DNA of 24,669 nucleotides from a virus. A program made the translations under genes and the position numbers. The notes under the pieces were generated by a model. It saw only the letters and a program-made list of their open reading frames with translations, was not told the origin of the DNA and made no database searches. This document shows positions 1 through 24,669 of this stretch, one piece after another (the stretch's first letter is position 1; the number at the start of each line of letters is the position of its first letter). Where the stretch lies: positions 1-24,669 of IMG/VR virus record IMGVR_UViG_3300046360_000116. One strand, given 5' to 3'.

Positions 1-112
1 ACGGATTGACAGGCCGGAAAGACGGCTACTTAAATTAACAACCTCCATGCTATGCGTGGTTTGCTATCCCTCCCCGCCATAAATGACGGGGTATCTCGCA
101 AAGGAAATTTTG
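1..112. other. structured GC-rich left-edge segment, no gene called
   Basis: This stretch is clearly richer in G+C than the phage genes and holds three small hairpins in a row: GGCCG/CGGCT at 12-16 and 23-27, CCATGC/GCGTGG at 45-50 and 54-59 (one G-T pair), and CCCCG/CGGGG at 72-76 and 87-91. A reading frame open from the window edge ends in TAA at 80-82, but it is too short to identify. The last bases (100-105, AAAGGA) are the ribosome binding site of the following gene. A chain of hairpins like this could be the end of a transposable element (IS200/IS605 ends are hairpin-rich), a structured RNA, or the terminator of a gene outside the window. I cannot choose between these from the sequence. 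Confidence 0.3.
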
Positions 113-583
113 ATGAAGATTAAAATATTAGTTTTATCAATGCTAGCTGCAACAAATATTTATGCCAATACTGGAATTATTAATCTAAAACTTACTCAAG
201 TTTTAGTAGAACATGTTGACAGAATTCCAGAACAAAATTTAAAAACAAAGAGTGCAATGTGCACCGCTTCTGCTAATCCTGCAAGTGGAAAAGCTGGGCA
301 AAATATTATGGCAAGTGGATACGTAAGTTATGTTATTACCAATAATACAGCTTCAACACAAAATTATTCTATCGACGAATATATGTGCATAAATGGATTT
401 GGATGTACTCATGTTAGAAATTCAGCAACTTTAAATAGCCATATGACAGGAAATGGTGGTGGAACAATTTCTACAACTCAATATATTTCATCAAAAGGAA
501 ATTATATTGATCAATCTAGTATTCAAATTACCGGTGAATCCACATGCTTTGTTCAAGGAACAAGTACTGTGACAGTTTCTTAA
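113..583 (+). CDS. small secreted protein, unknown function (candidate moron)
   Basis: This 156-aa protein is the only plus-strand gene and converges on the late operon. The ATG at 113 is chosen over the one at 83 because AAAGGA at 100-105 lies seven bases before it and because this start gives a clean Sec signal peptide (Lys-rich start, hydrophobic core, likely cleavage after the Ala of IYA, residues 16-18). The mature part is Ser/Thr/Asn-rich with four cysteines: one near MCTAS, two in the MCINGFGC segment and one in STCFVQ. This suggests a small disulphide-stabilised beta-sandwich in the periplasm or outside the cell. I do not recognise the family. A terminator follows directly, so it is probably transcribed alone. 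If this is a prophage it is a candidate lysogenic-conversion gene; it could equally be a host gene next to the phage. Confidence 0.75.
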   Translation: MKIKILVLSMLAATNIYANTGIINLKLTQVLVEHVDRIPEQNLKTKSAMCTASANPASGKAGQNIMASGYVSYVITNNTASTQNYSIDEYMCINGFGCTHVRNSATLNSHMTGNGGGTISTTQYISSKGNYIDQSSIQITGESTCFVQGTSTVTVS

Positions 584-6117: not shown

Positions 6118-6439
6118 AAATAATTTCCAATTCTGATTCTGATGCATAAATCAGAAATTGTGTTATACCAAATTGTCTCCAATCTGGATAATCATCATTC
6201 TGTGTTATAAATACAAAATTTCCATTTTCTAAATAATGAGATTCAATTAATGGAAATCCATAAACCGCTCTAACCCCTGTCACTATTACTATATTATTTA
6301 TTATTATATCTACTGATATGACACCACTTGTTCCATCCAAATTATCTTGAGTTGCATGGAAATTAAGATCGAATTGATTATCATTTAGTTGAATAGATAG
6401 AGATTGATTAGGGATATTTTGTAATGGTATTTGAATCAT
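6104..6439 (-). CDS. baseplate plug-like protein, DUF6983 family
   Basis: This 111-aa protein resembles the small DUF6983 / cyanophage-type baseplate plug family. The features are an IQIPLQNIPNQSLSIQL start, an IINNIVIVTGVRAVYGFPLI core, a YLENGNFVFITQNDDYPDW segment and a GITQFLIYASESELE end, which match the family almost motif by motif. In solved small contractile baseplates this protein fills the centre of the baseplate between hub and Dit-like ring. The ribosome binding site is weak (GGGA at the end of the previous gene), so coupling to the upstream gene is likely. Confidence 0.75.
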   Translation of the reverse strand: MIQIPLQNIPNQSLSIQLNDNQFDLNFHATQDNLDGTSGVISVDIIINNIVIVTGVRAVYGFPLIESHYLENGNFVFITQNDDYPDWRQFGITQFLIYASESELEIIYANA

Positions 6440-6443
6440 ATTA

Positions 6444-7007
6444 TTATCCCGAAATAGTTATAGGTTTAGATAAATTAAATAAATCTTGAGCAGTTGTCAT
6501 TTGTTTTATATTCGCTGATGTTCCTTGCTGTTGTCCTCGATCAATCGTTGATGAATTTGATGGATATTTTGGAACATTTGTGGATTGAGCAGTAACATAT
6601 ACTACTTGTTTTAAACTTAATGCTATTGTTAAAGCATCATACATATTAGGATCTTCTTCATGTGGCAATGCAGATATAATCTGATTCTGATATATGCCTG
6701 CTCGCGTCTGAACAATTACTAATGTTGCTTGAAAAAAATATTGTCTAATTGATTTATAAACATCTTGATAATCAGACGATGCAAGTATTAGAGATAAATC
6801 TATTTCAATAGGTAATACGATTCTATGATCTGTAATAATTGCGCCTGTTTCTATGGGATGCTCCATTAATTTAGATTGTTCTTTTATAACTGCCTTTATT
6901 GATTTTGCTTGTTTGAATAATTCATTATAGTTTTTATCAAATATAGCAACTGTATCTACAGCTGAAGAGGGAAGCAATGTATTAATAATATTTAATGGAT
7001 TAGACAT
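6444..7007 (-). CDS. Dit-like phage tail/baseplate protein
   Basis: This 187-aa protein fits the Dit-like N-terminal domain family: a VAIFDKNYNELFKQAKSIKAV start, then EHPIETGAIITDHRIVLPIE, IRQYFFQATLVIVQTRAG and ALPHEEDPNMYDALTIAL with a KQVVYVTAQ strand. After that comes a flexible QQQG-containing tail. The ATG at 7007 overlaps the tape-measure stop by eight bases (ATGTCTAA) and has GGCGG upstream; ATGs at 7013 and further upstream are less likely. It should form the ring joining the distal tube to the baseplate. Its position directly after the tape measure supports this. Confidence 0.75.
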   Translation of the reverse strand: MSNPLNIINTLLPSSAVDTVAIFDKNYNELFKQAKSIKAVIKEQSKLMEHPIETGAIITDHRIVLPIEIDLSLILASSDYQDVYKSIRQYFFQATLVIVQTRAGIYQNQIISALPHEEDPNMYDALTIALSLKQVVYVTAQSTNVPKYPSNSSTIDRGQQQGTSANIKQMTTAQDLFNLSKPITISG

Positions 7008-8364
7008 ATACATTATCCGCCGAGTTTGCACTAGCTTGCTCTGTTTGAGATGTGAAATATTTGTTAAGCTCTGCTCTTAATCCATAAGCCACTCCTTGAG
7101 CATCGTTTGTCTGAATATCCATATTAATATTACTTATATTAATATTATTATTTCTGTTAAACAAAGATGAATTAATAACACCATTTGATGATGCACTATT
7201 GATAGGAGATGATGACGCATCATTCAAAAATCTTTTTCCAATTTCTTGACCGACATACTTTCCAGAAGAAGATCCAAATCCTAATATTTCAGATAATTTA
7301 TTATGTATAAAACTTAATGGATTTATCAGAGATAAAAGATCTGTAATGGCTTTTTTTACAACATCCTTTATATTTTCTCCCCATTTTTTCCAAGCGTTTT
7401 TGTTTTTTGTTATTTCAAAAATAGACAGCCCTATAGAATCAACAAAGTTATTAAATTTATCTATTAATTCACCGGTTAATGAATTACTACCGCTTAAAAA
7501 TGCTTTAAAATCTTCATATAAAATACCAACTAATGCGATCATTAATAATACTGATCCAGTAATCAATATTTGTTCTGCAAATATAATACCTAATGCTGCA
7601 CCTATACCAATCAATGATCCGATAACAACATCTTTATGTTGAGAAAGATATTCAAATCCTTTTGTCAAATAATTGAAAAATTTTATTAAATATGGTAATA
7701 AATCACTTTCTACAGCATTTGCCAATGTTCGAAAACCATGCTGTAAATTCAATAGAGATTTATTATATTCAGTCGTTAATTCAATATCTTTTTGAGTGAC
7801 AACACCTAATTCTCTTTGTTGTTTTAAAGCAGATTCTACTTCTCTTCTACCTTGTTGCAATAATAAAATTGTGGCCTCATCTAATCCTAATGATTTCCCC
7901 AATTTAAATGCTGAAAAACGGCTAACTTTGCTGAATACATCGGCAAGTTGAGGAAGAAATCTCAATGCTACTGAGGGATTTGTATTGAAATGCTCAGATA
8001 AATTTTTGAGAGAATTTTGAAACCCTTCTGCTGTTCCTCCCGCTTGCCTAACGGCATTATCCCACGTATCCAATTGTTCGGCATTAACACCCAAAGCTCT
8101 GGAGGTTTTACCTAATTCAATATCATAATCAAGCGTATTTTTAAATCCTGATATTACAGCGTTAACAGAAGCAAACCCTGCTAAAATTCCAGATAATGGT
8201 GCTAATATTCCTAAGAATTTCTCACCTAATCTTCCGCTAATATTGTCAGTTTCTTTTAGAGATTGATTTAATTTCTTTGTCGTATTGAGTGCTTCTTCTG
8301 AACCTTTTTTAAGATTAGAAGTATCACTTTTAAATAAAATATAAAAAGTCTCAAGTATCGACAT
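7000..8364 (-). CDS. tail tape measure protein
   Basis: This 454-aa protein follows the chaperone frameshift pair, as tape measures do. It has a helical, Lys/Glu/Leu-rich N-terminus (KKGSEEALNTTKKLNQSLKE), a conserved AERALGV-like segment (SRALGVNAEQLDTWDNAVRQ) and a TAEGF.NSLKNLSEHF segment. A hydrophobic, probably membrane-spanning stretch lies at about residues 247-283 (GSLIGIGAALGIIFAEQ, then LLMIALVGILYED). The tail end is Asn/Ser-rich. The start overlaps the upstream stop as TAATG. At about 1.5 angstrom per residue, the known ruler relation, it would set a tail of roughly 65-70 nm, short for a myovirus. It is coded in one intact frame. Confidence 0.88.
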   Translation of the reverse strand: MSILETFYILFKSDTSNLKKGSEEALNTTKKLNQSLKETDNISGRLGEKFLGILAPLSGILAGFASVNAVISGFKNTLDYDIELGKTSRALGVNAEQLDTWDNAVRQAGGTAEGFQNSLKNLSEHFNTNPSVALRFLPQLADVFSKVSRFSAFKLGKSLGLDEATILLLQQGRREVESALKQQRELGVVTQKDIELTTEYNKSLLNLQHGFRTLANAVESDLLPYLIKFFNYLTKGFEYLSQHKDVVIGSLIGIGAALGIIFAEQILITGSVLLMIALVGILYEDFKAFLSGSNSLTGELIDKFNNFVDSIGLSIFEITKNKNAWKKWGENIKDVVKKAITDLLSLINPLSFIHNKLSEILGFGSSSGKYVGQEIGKRFLNDASSSPINSASSNGVINSSLFNRNNNINISNINMDIQTNDAQGVAYGLRAELNKYFTSQTEQASANSADNVYV

Positions 8365-8899
8365 TATAATCCCTTATTTTTTTTAGCTCGCTCCATTGCT
8401 TTATATTCATTGTATCTTGTAATAGCGATAATTTCCCATAAATTCATGGCATCTTCTAAACTATAAATTGTTTTTAATTCGTTGAGGGTTGCTTTTCCGT
8501 CAGCGATGATTGTTGCGACAAATGGATCAATATTTTTGAAATCGATTCCGGTATTTTCTGGGCGATATCTTGTAAGAAAGTCGAGACTCGCCCGCTGAGA
8601 AAAAAAGAGCAATTATACTCCATCATTGCAACTTCAAGTTTTGCCAATGTTTCCCAATTTCCTGTATGATTATCTATTAATGCCGTAGTAGTTAGCATTA
8701 ATGGTGCTGATTTATCATGAATCTTAACTCCAACATACATCATCATTTTTTGCATGATTTCTTCGTTAACTTTATAATCCCCAACTTTTGGAATGGCTGA
8801 AGATGTATAACGAGCAATAATTTCACGTCCAGCAACGGCAGGAAATTTTGACAAAATAAATGTTTTTCCATCAATTTCTATTTCTTTAGGTTCAATCAT
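8364..8899 (-). CDS. tail assembly chaperone, -1 frameshift fusion form
   Basis: This is the long form of the tail chaperone (the lambda gpGT role). It reads 8899-8600 in the first frame (100 residues), slips back one base at the T-TTT-TTT heptamer (8606-8600) and continues to the stop at 8364-8366 for 78 more residues, 178 in all. The second part (SQRASLDFLTRYRPENTGID, then DPFVATIIADGKATL and YSLEDAMNLWEIIAITRYN) has no start codon with a good ribosome site, which supports expression only by frameshift. Fusion products of this kind help fold and load the tape measure while tube subunits assemble, and are not in the finished virion. The stop couples to the tape-measure ATG as TAATG. Confidence 0.85.
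8474..8899 (-). CDS. tail assembly chaperone, short form
   Basis: This 141-aa protein is the unshifted product (lambda gpG role). It starts IDGKTFILSKFPAVAGREI, has GDYKVNEEIMQKMMMYVGV and NHTGNWETLAKLEVAMMEYN, and ends in PSTN. This matches the chaperone family found beside DUF3277-type tube genes. It begins with an ATG that overlaps the tube-gene stop as ATGA. The last 41 residues lie beyond the slip site and are unique to this form. It is normally made in large excess over the fusion. Confidence 0.82.
   Translation of the reverse strand: MIEPKEIEIDGKTFILSKFPAVAGREIIARYTSSAIPKVGDYKVNEEIMQKMMMYVGVKIHDKSAPLMLTTTALIDNHTGNWETLAKLEVAMMEYNCSFFLSGRVSTFLQDIAQKIPESISKILIHLSQQSSLTEKQPSTN
8560..8606 (-). 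promoter_or_regulatory. -1 programmed frameshift signal with stimulatory hairpin
   Basis: On the minus strand the heptamer T-TTT-TTT (8606-8600) is exactly in the X-XXY-YYZ register of the first frame (tcT TTT TTT ctc). Six bases downstream a stem begins: GGGCGA (8593-8588) pairs with TCGCCC (8565-8560). Four more pairs (GUCU with AGAU, one G-U) lie inside, past a bulged A. A slip puts the ribosome exactly into the second open frame, which would otherwise lack a good start. Confidence 0.85.
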
Positions 8900-9341
8900 A
8901 ATCCGCCTATTTTATTTTCAAAAGCGAACTGATAATTTTTCGACTTCAATCTCCCAGCACTTGATACAGCGCTACCTGGCAAGCCATCTGTGATAGCTCC
9001 ATTAATCAATGTAATAGGAGTATTATTCGGATATATACCAGTCATTGTAATAATATCTCTGGCACCTGTTTTCCCTTTTCCTACTCGATTCGCTTCTAAT
9101 AAAACAGCTAAATTAAGATCGCTAAAACTTTCTGGAATAACGTTCAATGTAACAATAATTGATTTGCTTTTGACCAAATAATCAAATCGCCATTTAATCC
9201 CATTGCTTTATCTGCAATTTGAATAGATGGTAAATCAAAAGGATCTGAATCATCAGCGAATTCTGTAATCAAAAGTCCTATAGGAAAACTATTGGACGCA
9301 ATAATATTAATCGATAAGCCAAAACCTGAAATATTTTGCAT
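8896..9341 (-). CDS. tail tube protein, frame-disrupted (DUF3277-like)
   Basis: This is the gene for the inner tail tube, about 148 aa if intact. Frame one starts at the ATG at 9341 (GGAG upstream) and runs to TGA at 9144-9146 as 65 residues, the last few nonsense after WSKAN. Frame two continues the protein sense from about 9160 ([54 protein letters not shown]) to 8896. Adding one C next to 9161 (CAA to CCAA) restores [15 protein letters not shown] without a break, which matches what such tube proteins look like. No slippery heptamer exists here, so a one-base loss (sequencing error or real mutation) fits better than programmed shifting. The place between sheath and chaperone is the tube position, and no other tube gene is visible in this window. 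Confidence 0.75.
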
Positions 9342-17796: not shown

Positions 17797-19348
17797 TTGG
17801 TTTTTCCTCCACAAATTCTTTGTTTTCGTTATTTAATTCTTCGTTATTTTGCTCAATTTCTTCATCAACCATGCCATTATATCCACTTTCAGAATCAACG
17901 ATTAATCGTTGTCTTTCGTCATTTCCATCAATAGCACCACTCGTCATTAGAATTTGCCCTGTTTCTGCTTTTGTTTTATTAAGAATTGCTAACTCTTCAG
18001 CTGTCATAGCATCTAAAGGCTTCCATTGAACTTCAGTATCAAAAGGTGCGATATTAAATTCATCGCATATTTCAGATCGAATCAACAATAAATGATGACG
18101 TTGAATCAAAGGCGTTAAAGCATGGCATTGAAGACTCTCAAGCATTTCATGATAGCTTGCCTCCTCATATTCACCTGTCGCATTAAAACCTTTTGGTGAT
18201 GTTCCTAAAAGCTTTACGGCAGGTACGTTTGATGCTGCTGCTACTAATTGATATTGAGTCATGATAACTTCATCAAGATCTGCTAGTGAAGTATCAAATT
18301 GAGACATTTTTTCCTCAAGACCTAATAATTTAATTCCATAATTATCACGAAGATTAACCCATTCTTGAATACGTGATGTGACACCTTGATTTGATACAGG
18401 ATTGTTCGGTTGATTAGCTAGAGACTGTGCTAAATCAATGTTAATAACATCTGTTCTCTTCGTTAAAGCCAACATAGGTGCTTCATTAGCTATTCTTTCC
18501 GCAGCATATACACGTTCATAAATTTTTTGAGGTATTGGAATTCCTCCATAAATATATGTGGGTTTTAATATATCTGCTACTTCTTCAGTACGATAAACAA
18601 TAAGATGCGATTTATGCACAAGTTTACCGGCGATATTCCACCATGTCGGTTCATAGAATCCTATGCTAGAAGGATCACCCGATGCCTCTTGATCAAGTTG
18701 TGGAGTTACCCAATATGGATCTATTTGAGATATACCTTTATAACTTCCAGGTTTTACACCATCTGGATTAAACGGCTTAAAATAATATTCTTCATCATCT
18801 GAATCGACTTTAAACATCGCTATTCTGATTCCAAATATACGACCAAACTGTAAAAATTGAACAAGATTATATTCTAGTCGATATTCCATATCCAACTTTC
18901 TCATTTTATCTAAAATCTTTGGATCAATATCTGTTCCGTCATTTACAGTAACATCAAAACCTTTTCTGATTGCATCTTCAGCAGGCATTAAACACGCTTT
19001 CGAAACCAGCCATTGCTGAGCCAGCATAGCGCATAATTGATAACCTATAAATGTTTGATTTGCATACCAGAGCAACTGCGGTACGGGTATGACTTCATTA
19101 CCATAAAACGATGATTTTATACTTTGAGCATTATCCATAGCAAAATTAAATTTCTTTGAATCCATAGCGTGTTTTACTTCAGGCGTAATACTATTTTTAA
19201 ATGTATGATCCCAAACATTTTCAATTTTTGAAATCATTGCATCAATAGCAAAATCATTTGTGCTGAATATTTGCCTTGGCTTTTCTTTGAATTCTTTTTG
19301 AGTAGGTTTTTCAACTTTTCTGAATCTATTAAAAAATTCCTTTATCAT
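17786..19348 (-). CDS. portal protein, DUF1073 family
   Basis: This 520-aa protein is the dodecameric head vertex through which DNA enters and leaves. Family features: an aromatic [20 protein letters not shown] segment, [33 protein letters not shown], a [10 protein letters not shown] motif, and [13 protein letters not shown] with [20 protein letters not shown]. The C-terminal part has [20 protein letters not shown], the conserved DUF1073 clip region. The ATG at 19348 overlaps the terminase stop as ATGA, with AAGGA upstream. An upstream in-frame start would lie inside terminase and is rejected. The C-terminal tail is Glu/Asn-rich. Confidence 0.92.
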
Positions 19349-20961
19349 GTCCAAAATCCTTGTATTCGTTTTTGTCGTGAAAAACAAATCATTAAAGCAT
19401 CCGCTAAATTAGGTGATATTGCACCATCCGGCATTTTATCAACTATAATTTTACCCACATTATCTTCTGAATAGGTCGGTTGAGATATCTCACTGATTAA
19501 CTTATTAAGATTAGTTAATTCACTAGCAAGACTTATAATGCTATCAGGATTATAATCTGTTTTTCCATTCATAGCTTTGTAAGTTTCTTGAAATCTATAT
19601 CTTAAATCCCACCATGCTTGAGCCTTGGCATTTTTGAAATAATCCTCATTAGTTCTTCCTCTTCCAGCAGGCTTAACACCGCTAAAAAATTCCAGAGGAT
19701 CTCTAGTAGGATCAATTACTGACCCTGATCCTCTAAATTGATGACATAACACTTGGGTTTGTCCGGCGATTCGTCGTTTGTCATTAATGATACGAGCGTC
19801 ACCCCTAACACCAGCTCCAAGACCATCACCATCGTAATAAATAATATCAATATTATGCCTATCGCATAAGTGAAAAGCTTTTTCAACTGAATCAAAGATA
19901 TCCGCATTTTTTCCGCTCCATTCTTCCAGAACATTAACTAAAATTCCTTGACGGCCACAATAGGCGTTCTTATCTTTTCCTTGATCGGCTATATCAAGCC
20001 CCGAAATTAATGAACCTGTCGGCTTTATATTAAGCTTTAAATGAGAATCAACGGATGCTTGCACCCATGCAGAAGGTATCAAAACACCTTCCATCGATGC
20101 TGAGTAATCCAAATCAATTTCCTGTGCTATAACTACAGGATCATCAATGTCTCTACATTTTTCTAAATACCAGTTTTGATCCTTCCGTGGATCATCTCGC
20201 CAGGAGAAAGTAAACACTGATATTTTGCCTCCAAAGCGTTTGCGGGCAAAAGGGTTATTCATGCCATGTGGTGTACTGATATCCACACGACAATTCGTTG
20301 TTTGTGAGAGGGATGCTTCGACCAAATCAGGTCTAGGAAGCCATGCACTTTCATCAACTATATAAAATGAAGCTCGATCACCTCGACCGATTCCATCTCC
20401 CGCTTCTCCTGATATTATAGATCCAGTATCAGGAAAATTTATTCTCATATGGGGAGCATGTTTATCAATATTCCATGATCCTTTAAATTCTCGTGGTAAA
20501 CAATTTATAAATTGTCTGCATTTATGTAACAATGATTTAGGATCACCTAGCTTGTCAACATATTCTTGTTTTCGACTTCCAAATCCGACCGTCAAACCAT
20601 CATTAAATAAGCACATAGTGGAGGCTAAAGCGATGGTCAACCAGCTTAACCCCATTTCTCTTGATTTCTCAGTTAACCCTGGCTTACCACGACGCCAAAT
20701 ATCAAGGAACCAATCAACCCATTCTTCTTGTTTAGGAAATAGAAGAAATGGACAGACGGAGGGTAAACCTCTTTCGATATTTCTTGGATCGTAAGTTACA
20801 CCCCAATCAATAATAAATTGAGCAGGATGTGTTCTATAATATTTTTTCAATCCATTTAATATAGATTCATCTTTCTTGATTTCATTTAATCTTTTTATTC
20901 TCCAGTTAAAAACTGAAGTATAATCAGGATTTTTAAAATCAAATTCGAATGGAATTGGCAT
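19345..20961 (-). CDS. terL: terminase large subunit
   Basis: This 538-aa DNA-packaging motor has an N-terminal ATPase and a C-terminal nuclease. Visible motifs: an atypical Walker A ([10 protein letters not shown], about residues 98-107), Walker B with catalytic Glu ([14 protein letters not shown] at about 201-204), coupling motif ISTPHG (about 228-233), and RNase H-like nuclease acidic residues at GLDIADQG (about 321-328), [12 protein letters not shown] (Asp377 region) and [11 protein letters not shown] near the end. The ATG at 20961 shares its A with the upstream stop (TAATG); a TTG nine bases earlier has no better site. All motor motifs look intact. Its partner small subunit is not recognisable in the window. 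Confidence 0.95.
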
Positions 20962-21239
20962 TATTGGCAAGAATCTAATGCTACAGGTGAATCAACTTCC
21001 TGTTTATTTTCTGAGTTATTAGAATGCAATTCTAATTCACTTTCTAATTTTAATATTTTTTGATTAAGCTCATTATTTAATGCCATTAATTCTCTTTCTC
21101 TTTCTTGATATAAAATATTAGTCGCTTTTAAATCATTGTTATCACCTAGCATGCATCCTAAAGTATGATTTGCTGCGGAAATTTTAGCATTTGCAACTTT
21201 TAATAAATTTTTTGTTTCATCTAATTGTTGTTGTAACAT
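20961..21239 (-). CDS. small coiled-coil protein upstream of terminase
   Basis: This 92-aa protein is almost entirely predicted helix: heptad-like LQQQLDETKNLLKVANAKIS, a break around CMLGDNND, then YQERERELMALNNELNQKIL with KLESELELHS, and an acidic, disordered tail. AAGGAA lies upstream of the ATG, and the stop overlaps the terminase ATG as TAATG. That junction and place are where many phages encode the small terminase subunit, but I see no helix-turn-helix DNA-binding part. It may be an unusual small terminase, a packaging accessory, or a tail chaperone-like factor. I cannot choose. Confidence 0.7.
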   Translation of the reverse strand: MLQQQLDETKNLLKVANAKISAANHTLGCMLGDNNDLKATNILYQERERELMALNNELNQKILKLESELELHSNNSENKQEVDSPVALDSCQ

Positions 21240-21270: not shown

Positions 21271-22662
21271 CTATGGTGTTCCACCATCCGTTATAGTCCA
21301 GCTATAAGTTACGGTCAATAATAATCTTCCTGCCGTTCCATTAAATCCACCTGTTGTTGCATCATAATGAGAATTACCACCATTGAATGTAACTCCTATT
21401 TTAGGTGTGATTTGTGATCCCCATCCGGCCAATATTCCATTATAGTTTGCTGTTGATAATGTGATTTGATCAAACATATATTGTCCGGTTATTAATGATG
21501 TTATATTCCAGTTACCTAGATTCTGATCAAATGATGTTGCTAACTGAAACATAGATGACATATCAGTAACTAAGGAAGTATCCCAAGAAGAAATATCTTG
21601 ATTAAAAGCCGCTGCCTGATAAAACATATAATCCATTCTTGTGACTGAGGATGTATTCCAAGAAGAAATATCTCTGTTAAAAATAGTTGTTTCACTAAAC
21701 ATACTTGTCATTGTTGTAACTTTTGAAGTATCAAACGAAGAAATATCCTCATTAAAACCGTCTGCTTGAAAAAACATATAATCCATTTCTGTCACATTTG
21801 ATGTATTCCAGACCCCTATATTTTGATTGAATGCTATTGCGTCATTAAACATATTAGACATTGTAGTAACTGAAGATGTATCCCATGAAGAAATATTTTG
21901 ATCAAAAGCTACTGCTTGAAAAAACATATAATCCATTGCTGTTACATTTGATGTATCCCAAACCCCTATATTTTGATTGAATACAATTGCAGTATTAAAC
22001 ATATTAGACATTGATGTAACTGATGTTGTGACCCAGTTATTCAAACTATGATTAAATGTTAAACAAGCAAGAAACATAAGACTCATATCAGTTACTGCTG
22101 ATGTATTCCATGAACTTAAATCTTGATCAAAAATACCGGCATTTGCAAATGCAGAACTCATATTTGTTATTGAGGAAACATTCCAACTATTCATACTTGG
22201 AACACTCGTAAGAAATCTGCAATCCTGGAATATTTGAAAAAATGTAGTTGTTCCTGTTAAATCTAAAATATCTGTAGCTGTCACGGTCATGTTATTACAA
22301 CCAGCAAAATATGAACCATCATTACCCAGATTTAATATTCCCCAATTAGAAATATCTAATAATTTTATAGCATCTCCCGCTTCATTAAATACAAATCCTT
22401 TGCATATACCAGATATAGTTATTGTGTAAACACCTGAACTACTGTAAGTATGGAGTAAATTTGCATCATTCCATGTTGTTATAGTATTAGTATTTCCATC
22501 GCCCCAATCCACCAAACAGTTATATGTACCTGACACCACAAAAGGTAATTGAACTTGAGTATTTGAGCTTGTTGATCCACCTGTATTGGCTGTATTCCAA
22601 GAAGAAACAAAAAATGGGCTAGTAGTATTAGCTTGTCTAAAGGACAATCCAGGAGATAACAT
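21271..22662 (-). CDS. BspA/DUF285 leucine-rich-like repeat protein
   Basis: This 463-aa protein starts with a PKD-like beta domain (residues 15-92, with LVDWGDGN at 50-57 and YTITISG) followed by ten units of exactly 25 residues whose pattern is SSW.TS.VT.M..MF..A..FNQ.I, with Trp or Phe at 160, 185, 210 and every 25 on to 385. The end carries [16 protein letters not shown] and SWTITDGG, also typical of such proteins. BspA/DUF285 proteins are surface adhesins in many bacteria. No signal peptide is visible here, so export through the host Sec pathway is unlikely. Its place in a phage gene block makes virion attachment or host-surface binding a reasonable inference. GAGGT precedes the ATG. Confidence 0.85.
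21472..22191 (-). repeat. ten 75-base BspA-type coding repeats
   Basis: The repeats encode residues 158-397 with a strict 25-residue period. Within them the two 150-base stretches around 21762-21865 and 21912-22015 are nearly identical, showing that pairs of units were duplicated together. Confidence 0.85.
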
Positions 22663-22671
22663 AAATTGACC

Positions 22672-23073
22672 TCATAAGAAATTCTGAGAAAAAACCGTAT
22701 TCAAATGTGAGCCATCATAATAACTTGTAATAATATCAATTGCAGCATTTCCCGTGCTAACTGTCATAGAAGTACCACCTGGCCATTTAAATAAATTTCC
22801 ATAGGCTAATGTAAATGGCGATCCACCTTGCGTTATAACCCAAGTATAATAGGTACCTGCAACAAGATTTAATGGATTACTTAGCGTTGTATTTTCACTC
22901 AAAGTTGTTTTAAATATATTTCCAAGTTCTGCATTAGTTGCTGTTAAATTTCCTGAACTTGAAACAGTTACAGGAGAGCTTGTTTGGGCTGCTGTAAATG
23001 TATTTGCCGTAGATACAACATTAGCTAATGTAGTCGGAACACCTGGACAATTCGTTGAGTTATTGGTTGTCAT
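22672..23073 (-). CDS. beta-rich phage protein, probable virion or fibre component
   Basis: This 133-aa protein starts at an ATG (23073) with AAGGAAA about nine bases upstream; an in-frame ATG at 23133 lacks such a site. The chain is Thr/Ser/Asn-rich and beta-like: STANTFTAAQTSSPVTVSSS, then NLVAGTYYTWVITQGGSPFT, LFKWPGGTSMTVSTGNAAID, and a final YYDGSHLNTVFSQNFL. The WPGGT...ID...SYYDG pattern is common at the end of metagenomic phage tail and fibre proteins. It lies between the paralogous pair and the BspA-like protein, and no signal peptide is visible. Function is inferred from context only. Confidence 0.7.
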   Translation of the reverse strand: MTTNNSTNCPGVPTTLANVVSTANTFTAAQTSSPVTVSSSGNLTATNAELGNIFKTTLSENTTLSNPLNLVAGTYYTWVITQGGSPFTLAYGNLFKWPGGTSMTVSTGNAAIDIITSYYDGSHLNTVFSQNFL

Positions 23074-23210
23074 GATTAGATTTCCTTGTCTAATTAAACA
23101 ATTGTTATATTTCCTTGTGGCGCACCTAGGCATGCGAAATTCGTATTAGCCACTGTACAAAACAAGCAATTCAGCCATAATTAACATCCTTGTTAATATT
23201 TAATTTTATT
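23074..23210 (-). other. intergenic gap with possible tiny broken ORF
   Basis: This is one of the few real gaps. An AAGGAT ribosome site at 23186-23191 sits in the loop of a six-pair hairpin (ATTAAC/GTTAAT, 23180-23185 and 23192-23197), followed by ATG at 23178. That frame ends after ten residues (MAELLVLYSG). Skipping one T would open a 27-residue frame (MAECLFCTVANTNFACLGAP onward) to TAA at 23094. No terminator or promoter is convincing here. Confidence 0.25.
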
Positions 23211-24107
23211 TTAATTCACAAAAGCAGAAACCCATGGTACTGCTATAGTATTTCCTGCCAATGTCCATGCTGTAGGCGATGTAATAGTAGATGGACGACC
23301 TGATATAGTTGCAAATATTCCTGTTTGTATATCATCGGCAAGACCTGCTCGAATAATCATCGTAGTTGTGGCTTGGTCACCTAGAACTATCCATAGTACG
23401 TCACCTATAACTGCTGCTGTTGAAAGGGAAATAGTTGTATTCTTAATGCCTGTAGTGTTGGCCACACCCGAAATATCTGCAAATCCCAATCTTGTTAATG
23501 TCGGATTGCCATTTAAGTTAACAGAACCTTTAAATATTGCAATTTCAGCATAAGTGATGGTGGCGCATGCCGTTGTGACATTATATGTAACATTAATAGA
23601 TGATGAAGCTACCGGACAAACTCCAGCATAAATAGCGTACGAAGTGGCGCTTGTTAAAGATAATGTTGTGCTAGTGTTTGCTGCATCCTTTATAGGTTTT
23701 AACAGTTTATCGCCAGCAAGAGAAGTCGTACCAATTTTTTTAGCCCCTGTAGAATCAGACATTACCCAACCGCTATTTGTAGTATAGGTTAAAGAATCAC
23801 CTGGATTAAGAGTCCATGATAATATAACTCGATTTGTAGCATTATCTAAATAGCGTATTGTTATCTTATGCGCTATGGTATCGACATTAAAAATATTAAC
23901 AAGCTTTACTTGGCGTTGAGTAGAACTTGCAGGGGAAGCCACTATGGTCACTACGTTTGTTCCATTTAGCACTGTATCTGATGCCGAAGGAACAAATGTA
24001 GTGGTAGTAATGTCAGCGTAACTTACCGACACATCTGGATTAGTTGTGGCGGCTGCCGTATCCATTAAAGCAGTTAAACTTTTATTTGTAGCATCTAATA
24101 TAATCAT
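23211..24107 (-). CDS. phage beta-structured protein, paralogue of left-adjacent gene
   Basis: This 298-aa protein has two parts. The first 125 residues resemble a beta module found in phage fibres (VTIVASPASSTQRQVKLVNI, TIRYLDNATNRVILSWTLNP, GDSLTYTTNSGWVMSD). The rest (about 140-298) is shared with the protein encoded at 24114-24669: AIYAG.....SSSINVTYNV, CATITYAEIAIFKG, LTRLGFADISGVANTTGI, GDVLWIVLGDQATTT and a PWVSAFVN end. GAGG precedes the ATG and overlaps the upstream stop, so the two are coupled. No signal peptide is seen. It is probably a tail-tip or virion surface component, but nothing fixes its function. Confidence 0.75.
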   Translation of the reverse strand: MIILDATNKSLTALMDTAAATTNPDVSVSYADITTTTFVPSASDTVLNGTNVVTIVASPASSTQRQVKLVNIFNVDTIAHKITIRYLDNATNRVILSWTLNPGDSLTYTTNSGWVMSDSTGAKKIGTTSLAGDKLLKPIKDAANTSTTLSLTSATSYAIYAGVCPVASSSINVTYNVTTACATITYAEIAIFKGSVNLNGNPTLTRLGFADISGVANTTGIKNTTISLSTAAVIGDVLWIVLGDQATTTMIIRAGLADDIQTGIFATISGRPSTITSPTAWTLAGNTIAVPWVSAFVN

Positions 24108-24113
24108 ATGACC

Positions 24114-24669
24114 TCAATTTAAATAAGCTGCAATCCATGGATAATTTGAAGGTTGATTTACCATCTGTATTGTAGAGGATGTTGATGGTCTTGTTCCACC
24201 TACGTATGCATAAGACAAAGAATCAAGCGCAGGAGTTCCGCCACTATCAATACCTGCGCCACGAAAAATAGGCATAGTCGTCGCTTGATGACCTTGTACA
24301 AACCATATTGTATCGCCTATAGAAATAGAAGGGGAACAAGCAATATTTACTGAAAATATTCCAGTCGAATTAATAATTGCGGATGTATCAGTAAAACCCA
24401 ATCTAGTTAAATTTTGTGATATAGTTCCATTTGCTACATATTGCGAAGCAGTTAAATTAGTGGCAGGATTCCCTTTATAGATAGCAAATTCAGAATAAGT
24501 AATCGTGGCTATTGCTGTAGTAATTCTACAAAGTATATTAACTGAAGATGATGCTTTTGTTGCTGTACCTATATACAAGCCTATGGCAGCTTGACTTAAT
24601 CCAGACAAGGAATATGTATTTGATACAGACGCGATATCTTTATCGTATGAAAACATTAAAGATACAGGA
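24114..24669 (-). CDS. partial beta-structured phage protein, cut by window edge
   Basis: The frame is open to the window edge, and four codons before the ATG at 24656 are also open, so the true start may lie outside. At least 180 residues are visible. They follow the same order as the C-terminal part of the next protein: GLYIGTATKASSSVNILCRI, TITYSEFAIYKG, LTRLGFTDTSAIINSTGI, GDTIWFVQGHQATTMPIFRG and PWIAAYLN. A longer GNPATNLTASQYVANGTISQ loop is extra here. The two genes are tandem paralogues. Function is unknown; by context it is part of a fibre or surface module. Confidence 0.7.
   Translation of the reverse strand, partial: PVSLMFSYDKDIASVSNTYSLSGLSQAAIGLYIGTATKASSSVNILCRITTAIATITYSEFAIYKGNPATNLTASQYVANGTISQNLTRLGFTDTSAIINSTGIFSVNIACSPSISIGDTIWFVQGHQATTMPIFRGAGIDSGGTPALDSLSYAYVGGTRPSTSSTIQMVNQPSNYPWIAAYLN

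Follow-up and report, generated by a model that had tools for sequence, protein, structure and literature searches.

Mycoplasmas, Listeria, algal giant viruses and many phages all encode proteins with DUF285 repeats. Two DUF285 proteins of the giant algal virus AaV, AaV_052 and AaV_382, have been detected by mass spectrometry in purified particles (PMC7507832), and Vibrio phage pir03 encodes DUF285 proteins, ORF 200/287, to which no role has been assigned (PMC7765460); the literature that we searched yielded no proteomic analysis of virions for the DUF285 protein of any phage. The window analysed here (24,669 nt, the whole of the stretch taken from IMG/VR record IMGVR_UViG_3300046360_000116) is a 24.7-kb virus fragment from a contractile-tailed phage, and one of its genes (21271–22662, minus strand) encodes a 463-aa protein in which a PKD-like domain is followed by DUF285 (TIGR02167) repeats. 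This protein adds to a known, uncharacterised kind of protein, and we consider that it is probably an accessory virion adhesin, carried at a fibre tip or as a decoration of the head or neck.

The minus strand of the window encodes the terminase large subunit (TerL), a portal, a Mu-F-like protein, a capsid protein, a sheath-like DUF3383 protein, an E217-type tail protein, a baseplate J-like protein and, at the end of the tail module, a collar-domain tail fibre (627–1673). TerL (19345–20970, minus strand), which served as the anchor for comparison with related phages, is 88–71% identical to its counterparts in contigs L023–L026 and about 57–60% identical to those of prophages of beta- and gammaproteobacteria and of phages such as Magia. 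The adjoining gene (20961–21239, minus strand) encodes a 92-aa coiled-coil-like protein with a 54% identical homologue just before TerL in L023 and L024; it is not the terminase small subunit (TerS), since L023 carries a TerS in addition to the homologue of the 92-aa gene. The DUF285 gene itself extends from an ATG at 22662 to a stop codon at 21271, with a Shine–Dalgarno sequence, GAGG (22670–22673, minus strand), about 7 nt upstream of the ATG, and only 9 nt separate the ATG from the stop codon of the preceding gene. That gene (22672–23133, minus strand) encodes a 153-aa protein with an ANTFTAAQ-type fibre domain and a weak match to PHROG 19200, 'virion structural protein' (E=0.0012). Beyond it lie two adjacent orphan genes (23211–24656, minus strand) with no homologue found elsewhere: the first (23211–24107, minus strand) encodes a 298-aa beta-rich-looking protein, for which neither IMG/VR nor phage records yielded a homologue, and the second (24114–24656, minus strand) a 180-aa paralogue of its C-terminal part (about 40% identical over ~160 aa), the model of which was too poor for use (pLDDT 50).

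Three further features of the window were observed outside this region. The E217 gp32-type gene is split (8896–9341, minus strand), in that two ORFs in different frames match positions 1–60 and 57–142 of PF22764, and therefore either the gene is frame-disrupted or the contig contains an indel error. The overlapping ORFs 8474–8899 and 8364–8612 (8364–8899, minus strand), which separate the tail protein gene from the likely tape-measure gene and have a TTTTTTC slippery heptamer near 8605, are probably a tail-assembly chaperone pair expressed through programmed frameshifting. At the fibre end, the sole clear gene on the opposite strand (83–583, plus strand) encodes a 166-aa product that matches no family and begins with a signal-peptide-like sequence.

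The initial annotation, made from the sequence of the window, had described the protein as a PKD-like domain plus ten exact BspA units of 25 residues, and this description is confirmed with some corrections. The protein comprises, in order, a tip of 14 disordered residues, the weak PKD-like domain, ten DUF285 units in register and a WTITDGG-type C-terminus. The units occupy residues 159–408 (21439–22188, minus strand) and start at residues 159, 184, 209 and so on to 384, a spacing of exactly 25 residues, and self-identity at a lag of 25 is 26.3% compared with 7.5 ± 1.2% in shuffled sequences (maximum of 2000 shuffles 12.1%). 'Exact' nevertheless applies to the spacing and not to the sequences, because units 1–9 are 36–76% identical to one another and the degenerate tenth unit is 16–28% identical to the others. 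The label 'BspA-type' was also imprecise with regard to family, since a Pfam search found no match to LRR_5 (PF13306) at E≤0.01, and the protein belongs instead to DUF285 (PF03382; E=5.9e-121, 397.6 bits versus a cutoff of 25) and TIGR02167 (E=3.1e-32, 109.8 bits versus a cutoff of 30), although the predicted fold, a leucine-rich repeat (LRR) solenoid, is indeed BspA-like. The PKD-like (Ig-like) N-terminal beta domain (residues ~17–90; 22393–22614, minus strand) gave a PKD_4 match below the Pfam cutoff (17.2 bits versus 27; PF18911/PF00801), as did that of a relative, L010 (24.6 versus 27), yet its strands are confidently modelled and a PKD-like motif, which opens with VDWGDG and continues in a 13-residue stretch, is conserved in viral relatives. 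The C-terminal cap (21271–21438, minus strand), with an ending of 11 residues, is common to viral and bacterial family members.

At the DNA level the repeat region has a higher-order periodicity of 150 bp, equivalent to two units, and identity reaches 81% between units 3 and 5 and 85% between units 4 and 6; the array therefore grew as blocks of one or two units were duplicated. Comparison of sister units gave dN/dS values of 0.3–0.6, which do not point to diversifying selection. The palindromic signature described for PARCEL repeats (Roske et al., 2010; PMC2996958) was absent from the repeat DNA, in which the dyad score was 1.62 compared with 1.64 ± 0.05 in synonymous-codon shuffles and no 7-bp inverted repeats were present. 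Because this dyad test differs from the MEME method of Roske et al., the protein is filed under DUF285/TIGR02167 rather than among the palindromic PARCELs.

Structure prediction, which the initial annotation had proposed as a check, returned a model with a pLDDT of 87.5 in which a beta domain is followed by an LRR-like solenoid. Foldseek matched the model to those of viral DUF285 proteins and to no PDB entry at E≤0.001, and no PDB sequence relative was found at E≤1; the similarity to LRR structures in the PDB comes from a second-look aligner, with which LRR proteins ranked best (Z 14–19 over ~300 residues), among them the bacterial LRR surface proteins 4fs7 (Z 19.1) and 4gt6 (Z 14.1). The DUF285 array is thus predicted to adopt an LRR solenoid fold. 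Each unit contributes one strand residue in the model, at unit position 9, which is one of the variable positions.

The gene was first placed in a late operon just upstream of the packaging genes, a reading strengthened by synteny, and it lies in the late structural gene block shared with fibre and decoration genes. In L023 and L024, whose TerL is 88% identical to that of the window, a gap of ~5.9 kb between TerS and TerL holds an 895-aa fibre-like protein with T7 tail-fibre repeats (PHROG 2647 'head decoration', E=1.3e-12), other beta-rich ORFs and the homologue of the 92-aa gene. L025 (TerL 75% identical) encodes a C1q-domain protein, scoring above cutoff, just before TerL, and in Magia and IFTN9 TerS directly abuts TerL. 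The DUF285 gene is therefore part of a variable cassette beside TerL, and from gene order this slot would correspond to the TerS–TerL interval; TerS is missing from the window because the contig ends first. Elsewhere the DUF285 gene was recovered in L202, part of a 45.9-kb contig with a 58% identical TerL and the order TerS, an 81-aa protein, a 724-aa fibre protein and the DUF285 gene; in L206, just upstream of a TerS/TerL of another type; and in Butyrivibrio phage Arian, inside a longer TerS–TerL interval. The nearest relatives, L023–L026, are without it, and so the gene is not essential. The slot appears to be modular across phages, other phages placing other adhesive domains there. A ParB-like/N6-N4 DNA methyltransferase gene directly precedes TerS in both L023 (151–1377) and L202 (1952–3187).

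The association with a fibre-domain gene is recurrent. A profile search found the ANTFTAAQ-type domain directly preceding a DUF285 gene in five independent loci (the window, L149, L202, L145 and L224), of which L149 and L145 were retrieved by the fibre domain alone and not by DUF285; the domain of the 22672–23133 product also occurs in longer fibre-like proteins. L148 has the same fibre domain followed by a repetitive propeller-like ORF (6336–7364), flanked by portal and capsid genes of P22 type, and at this position L008 has a DUF285 gene. The pairing suggests a base protein with an exchangeable tip. Nine contigs, L011–L019, which are siphovirus-like, encode the PKD and DUF285 module as the C-terminal part of a head-completion (Hc1) protein at its usual place among the connector genes; the profile search covered L012 (7573–8880: PF05521, E=1.3e-8; PHROG 25 'head closure Hc1'), whose ORF and layout the other contigs share. 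Of the comparative evidence, this covalent join to a virion protein speaks most strongly for a module carried on particles, at least in the L011–L019 phages. Among the neighbours of 35 DUF285 loci, listed without a background control, are genes for tail fibre, portal, TerL/TerS, scaffold, holin and endolysin. In the cultured phages ACG-2014f, LAh10, pEt-SU, S-CBWM1, MD-2021a and Tr1 the DUF285 gene adjoins baseplate, collar, tail-fibre or tail-assembly genes. No extra domains were recognized at the N-termini of L184, L163 and L164.

One alternative is that the tail's principal receptor-binding protein is encoded here, at a distance from the tail genes. Fibre proteins lie next to TerS/TerL in this lineage, and several of the cultured phages carry a DUF285 gene next to a baseplate or tail-fibre gene. 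Against this, the window already has its collar-domain fibre, close relatives manage without a DUF285 gene, and one phage group has the module joined to a head-completion protein; we regard a main tail receptor-binding role as unlikely.

At least 554 IMG/VR stretches encode relatives of the 463-aa protein, the best match in the phage collection being only about 39% identical (LR756500.1), and in the sample of Pseudomonadota genomes only 6 of 398 gave a match. Close homologues are thus not confined to host genomes, since the gene occurs at hundreds of viral loci. (One record, L091, is titled Chryseobacterium sp. 18061; the 'phylum' sample around it shares genomes with the Pseudomonas-centred sample, and the title may be wrong.) The original observation that the protein lacks a secretion signal is borne out by a direct reading of its first 18 residues and by a crude hydropathy test (maximum over 11 residues 0.25), and by these means neither a signal peptide nor the cell-wall or outer-membrane anchor expected of a secreted bacterial surface adhesin was found. 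In a crude test of 77 non-redundant viral homologues none was positive, and the phage-like copy L243 likewise has no signal-peptide-like start, whereas the chromosomal copies L253 (between alr- and metE-like genes), L255 and L244 begin with signal-peptide-like sequences, that of L244 falling slightly short of the threshold. Bacterial surface proteins are the best-known members of the family, and its secreted-looking chromosomal homologues would favour a cargo (moron) gene whose product changes the surface of the lysogen or infected cell in the manner of cellular DUF285 surface proteins. The unsecreted viral forms, the co-directional and tightly spaced position between late genes and the fusion to a structural protein in L011–L019 all argue otherwise, and make a moron role very improbable.

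LRR solenoids often serve intracellular protein contacts, and the DUF285 copies PAU gp103 and Goslar_00161 lie away from structural genes. On these grounds the protein might be an assembly chaperone or host-takeover factor that uses its LRR-like surface for protein–protein contacts outside the virion. The PKD-like domain, the pairing with fibre-domain genes, the head-completion fusion in other phages and the DUF285 proteins in AaV virions weigh against such a factor, which we consider a very improbable explanation. In the PAU cryo-EM paper we found no link between gp103 and the capsid arch.

We therefore favour the accessory virion adhesin. The 463-aa protein is most likely in the virus particle, as in many other phages its relatives either neighbour genes for fibres or are joined to a protein of head assembly. 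The earlier suggestion of a virion surface protein is in part supported, being strengthened by synteny, the head-completion fusion, the fibre-gene pairing and the split between secreted chromosomal and unsecreted viral forms, and the DUF285 proteins of AaV particles lend it published support. Counting against it are the PAU and Goslar copies outside structural blocks, the lack of the gene in L023–L026 and the dN/dS values, which carry no signal of diversifying selection. Our working model is that the DUF285 protein is synthesized inside the cell at a late stage, together with the other structural proteins, as its position and the lack of a signal peptide indicate. It would then be incorporated into the particle, where it would form a fibre tip or a decoration and probably sit on the protein encoded by the neighbouring fibre-type gene. 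Placement would probably be on the head or neck and not on the baseplate, on evidence that does not separate head, neck and tail. The PKD-like domain may act as a spacer or mount, and the variable positions lining the strands (unit position 9 and its neighbours) may form a face that binds a glycan, a protein or another surface.

It is tempting to speculate, and we do so only tentatively, that an exchangeable adhesin encoded by two genes is widespread among tailed phages, in which a fibre or base protein bears an unsecreted PKD and DUF285 LRR tip (or a propeller or C1q domain) on the head or neck, sometimes fused to the head-closure protein. If so, the long-unassigned DUF285 repeat would have a concrete phage function, and tailed phages would possess an LRR-type recognition module with a bearing on host range and on phage adhesion to surfaces. 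The head-completion fusion and the recurrent fibre pairing lead to a specific, testable claim, that phage DUF285 proteins are adhesins borne on particles.

The protein resembles the PARCEL/DUF285/TIGR02167 proteins of Roske et al. (2010) in its 25-residue tandem repeats, its DUF285 match far above cutoff and the lateral distribution of the family, including viruses, and differs from them in the absence of the palindromic DNA signature and of a signal peptide and in its location in a phage late operon. With the BspA-type LRR_5 surface proteins represented by 4fs7 and 4gt6 it shares the predicted LRR-like fold; it has no PF13306 match at E≤0.01 and a different repeat consensus, and is not secreted. 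The pir03 proteins, the '26-residue repeat' protein of ACG-2014f and the 'BspA family' proteins of LAh10 and pEt-SU belong to the same repeat family in tailed phages and are often encoded next to baseplate or fibre genes, whereas the form in the window is a compact 463-aa PKD and repeat protein of a small myovirus, encoded beside TerL with a fibre-domain partner gene. Finally, the proteins that occupy the slot by TerL in L023/L024 and L025 are likewise beta-rich and variable between relatives, and in place of their fibre repeats or C1q head the phage described here would have an LRR-type tip.
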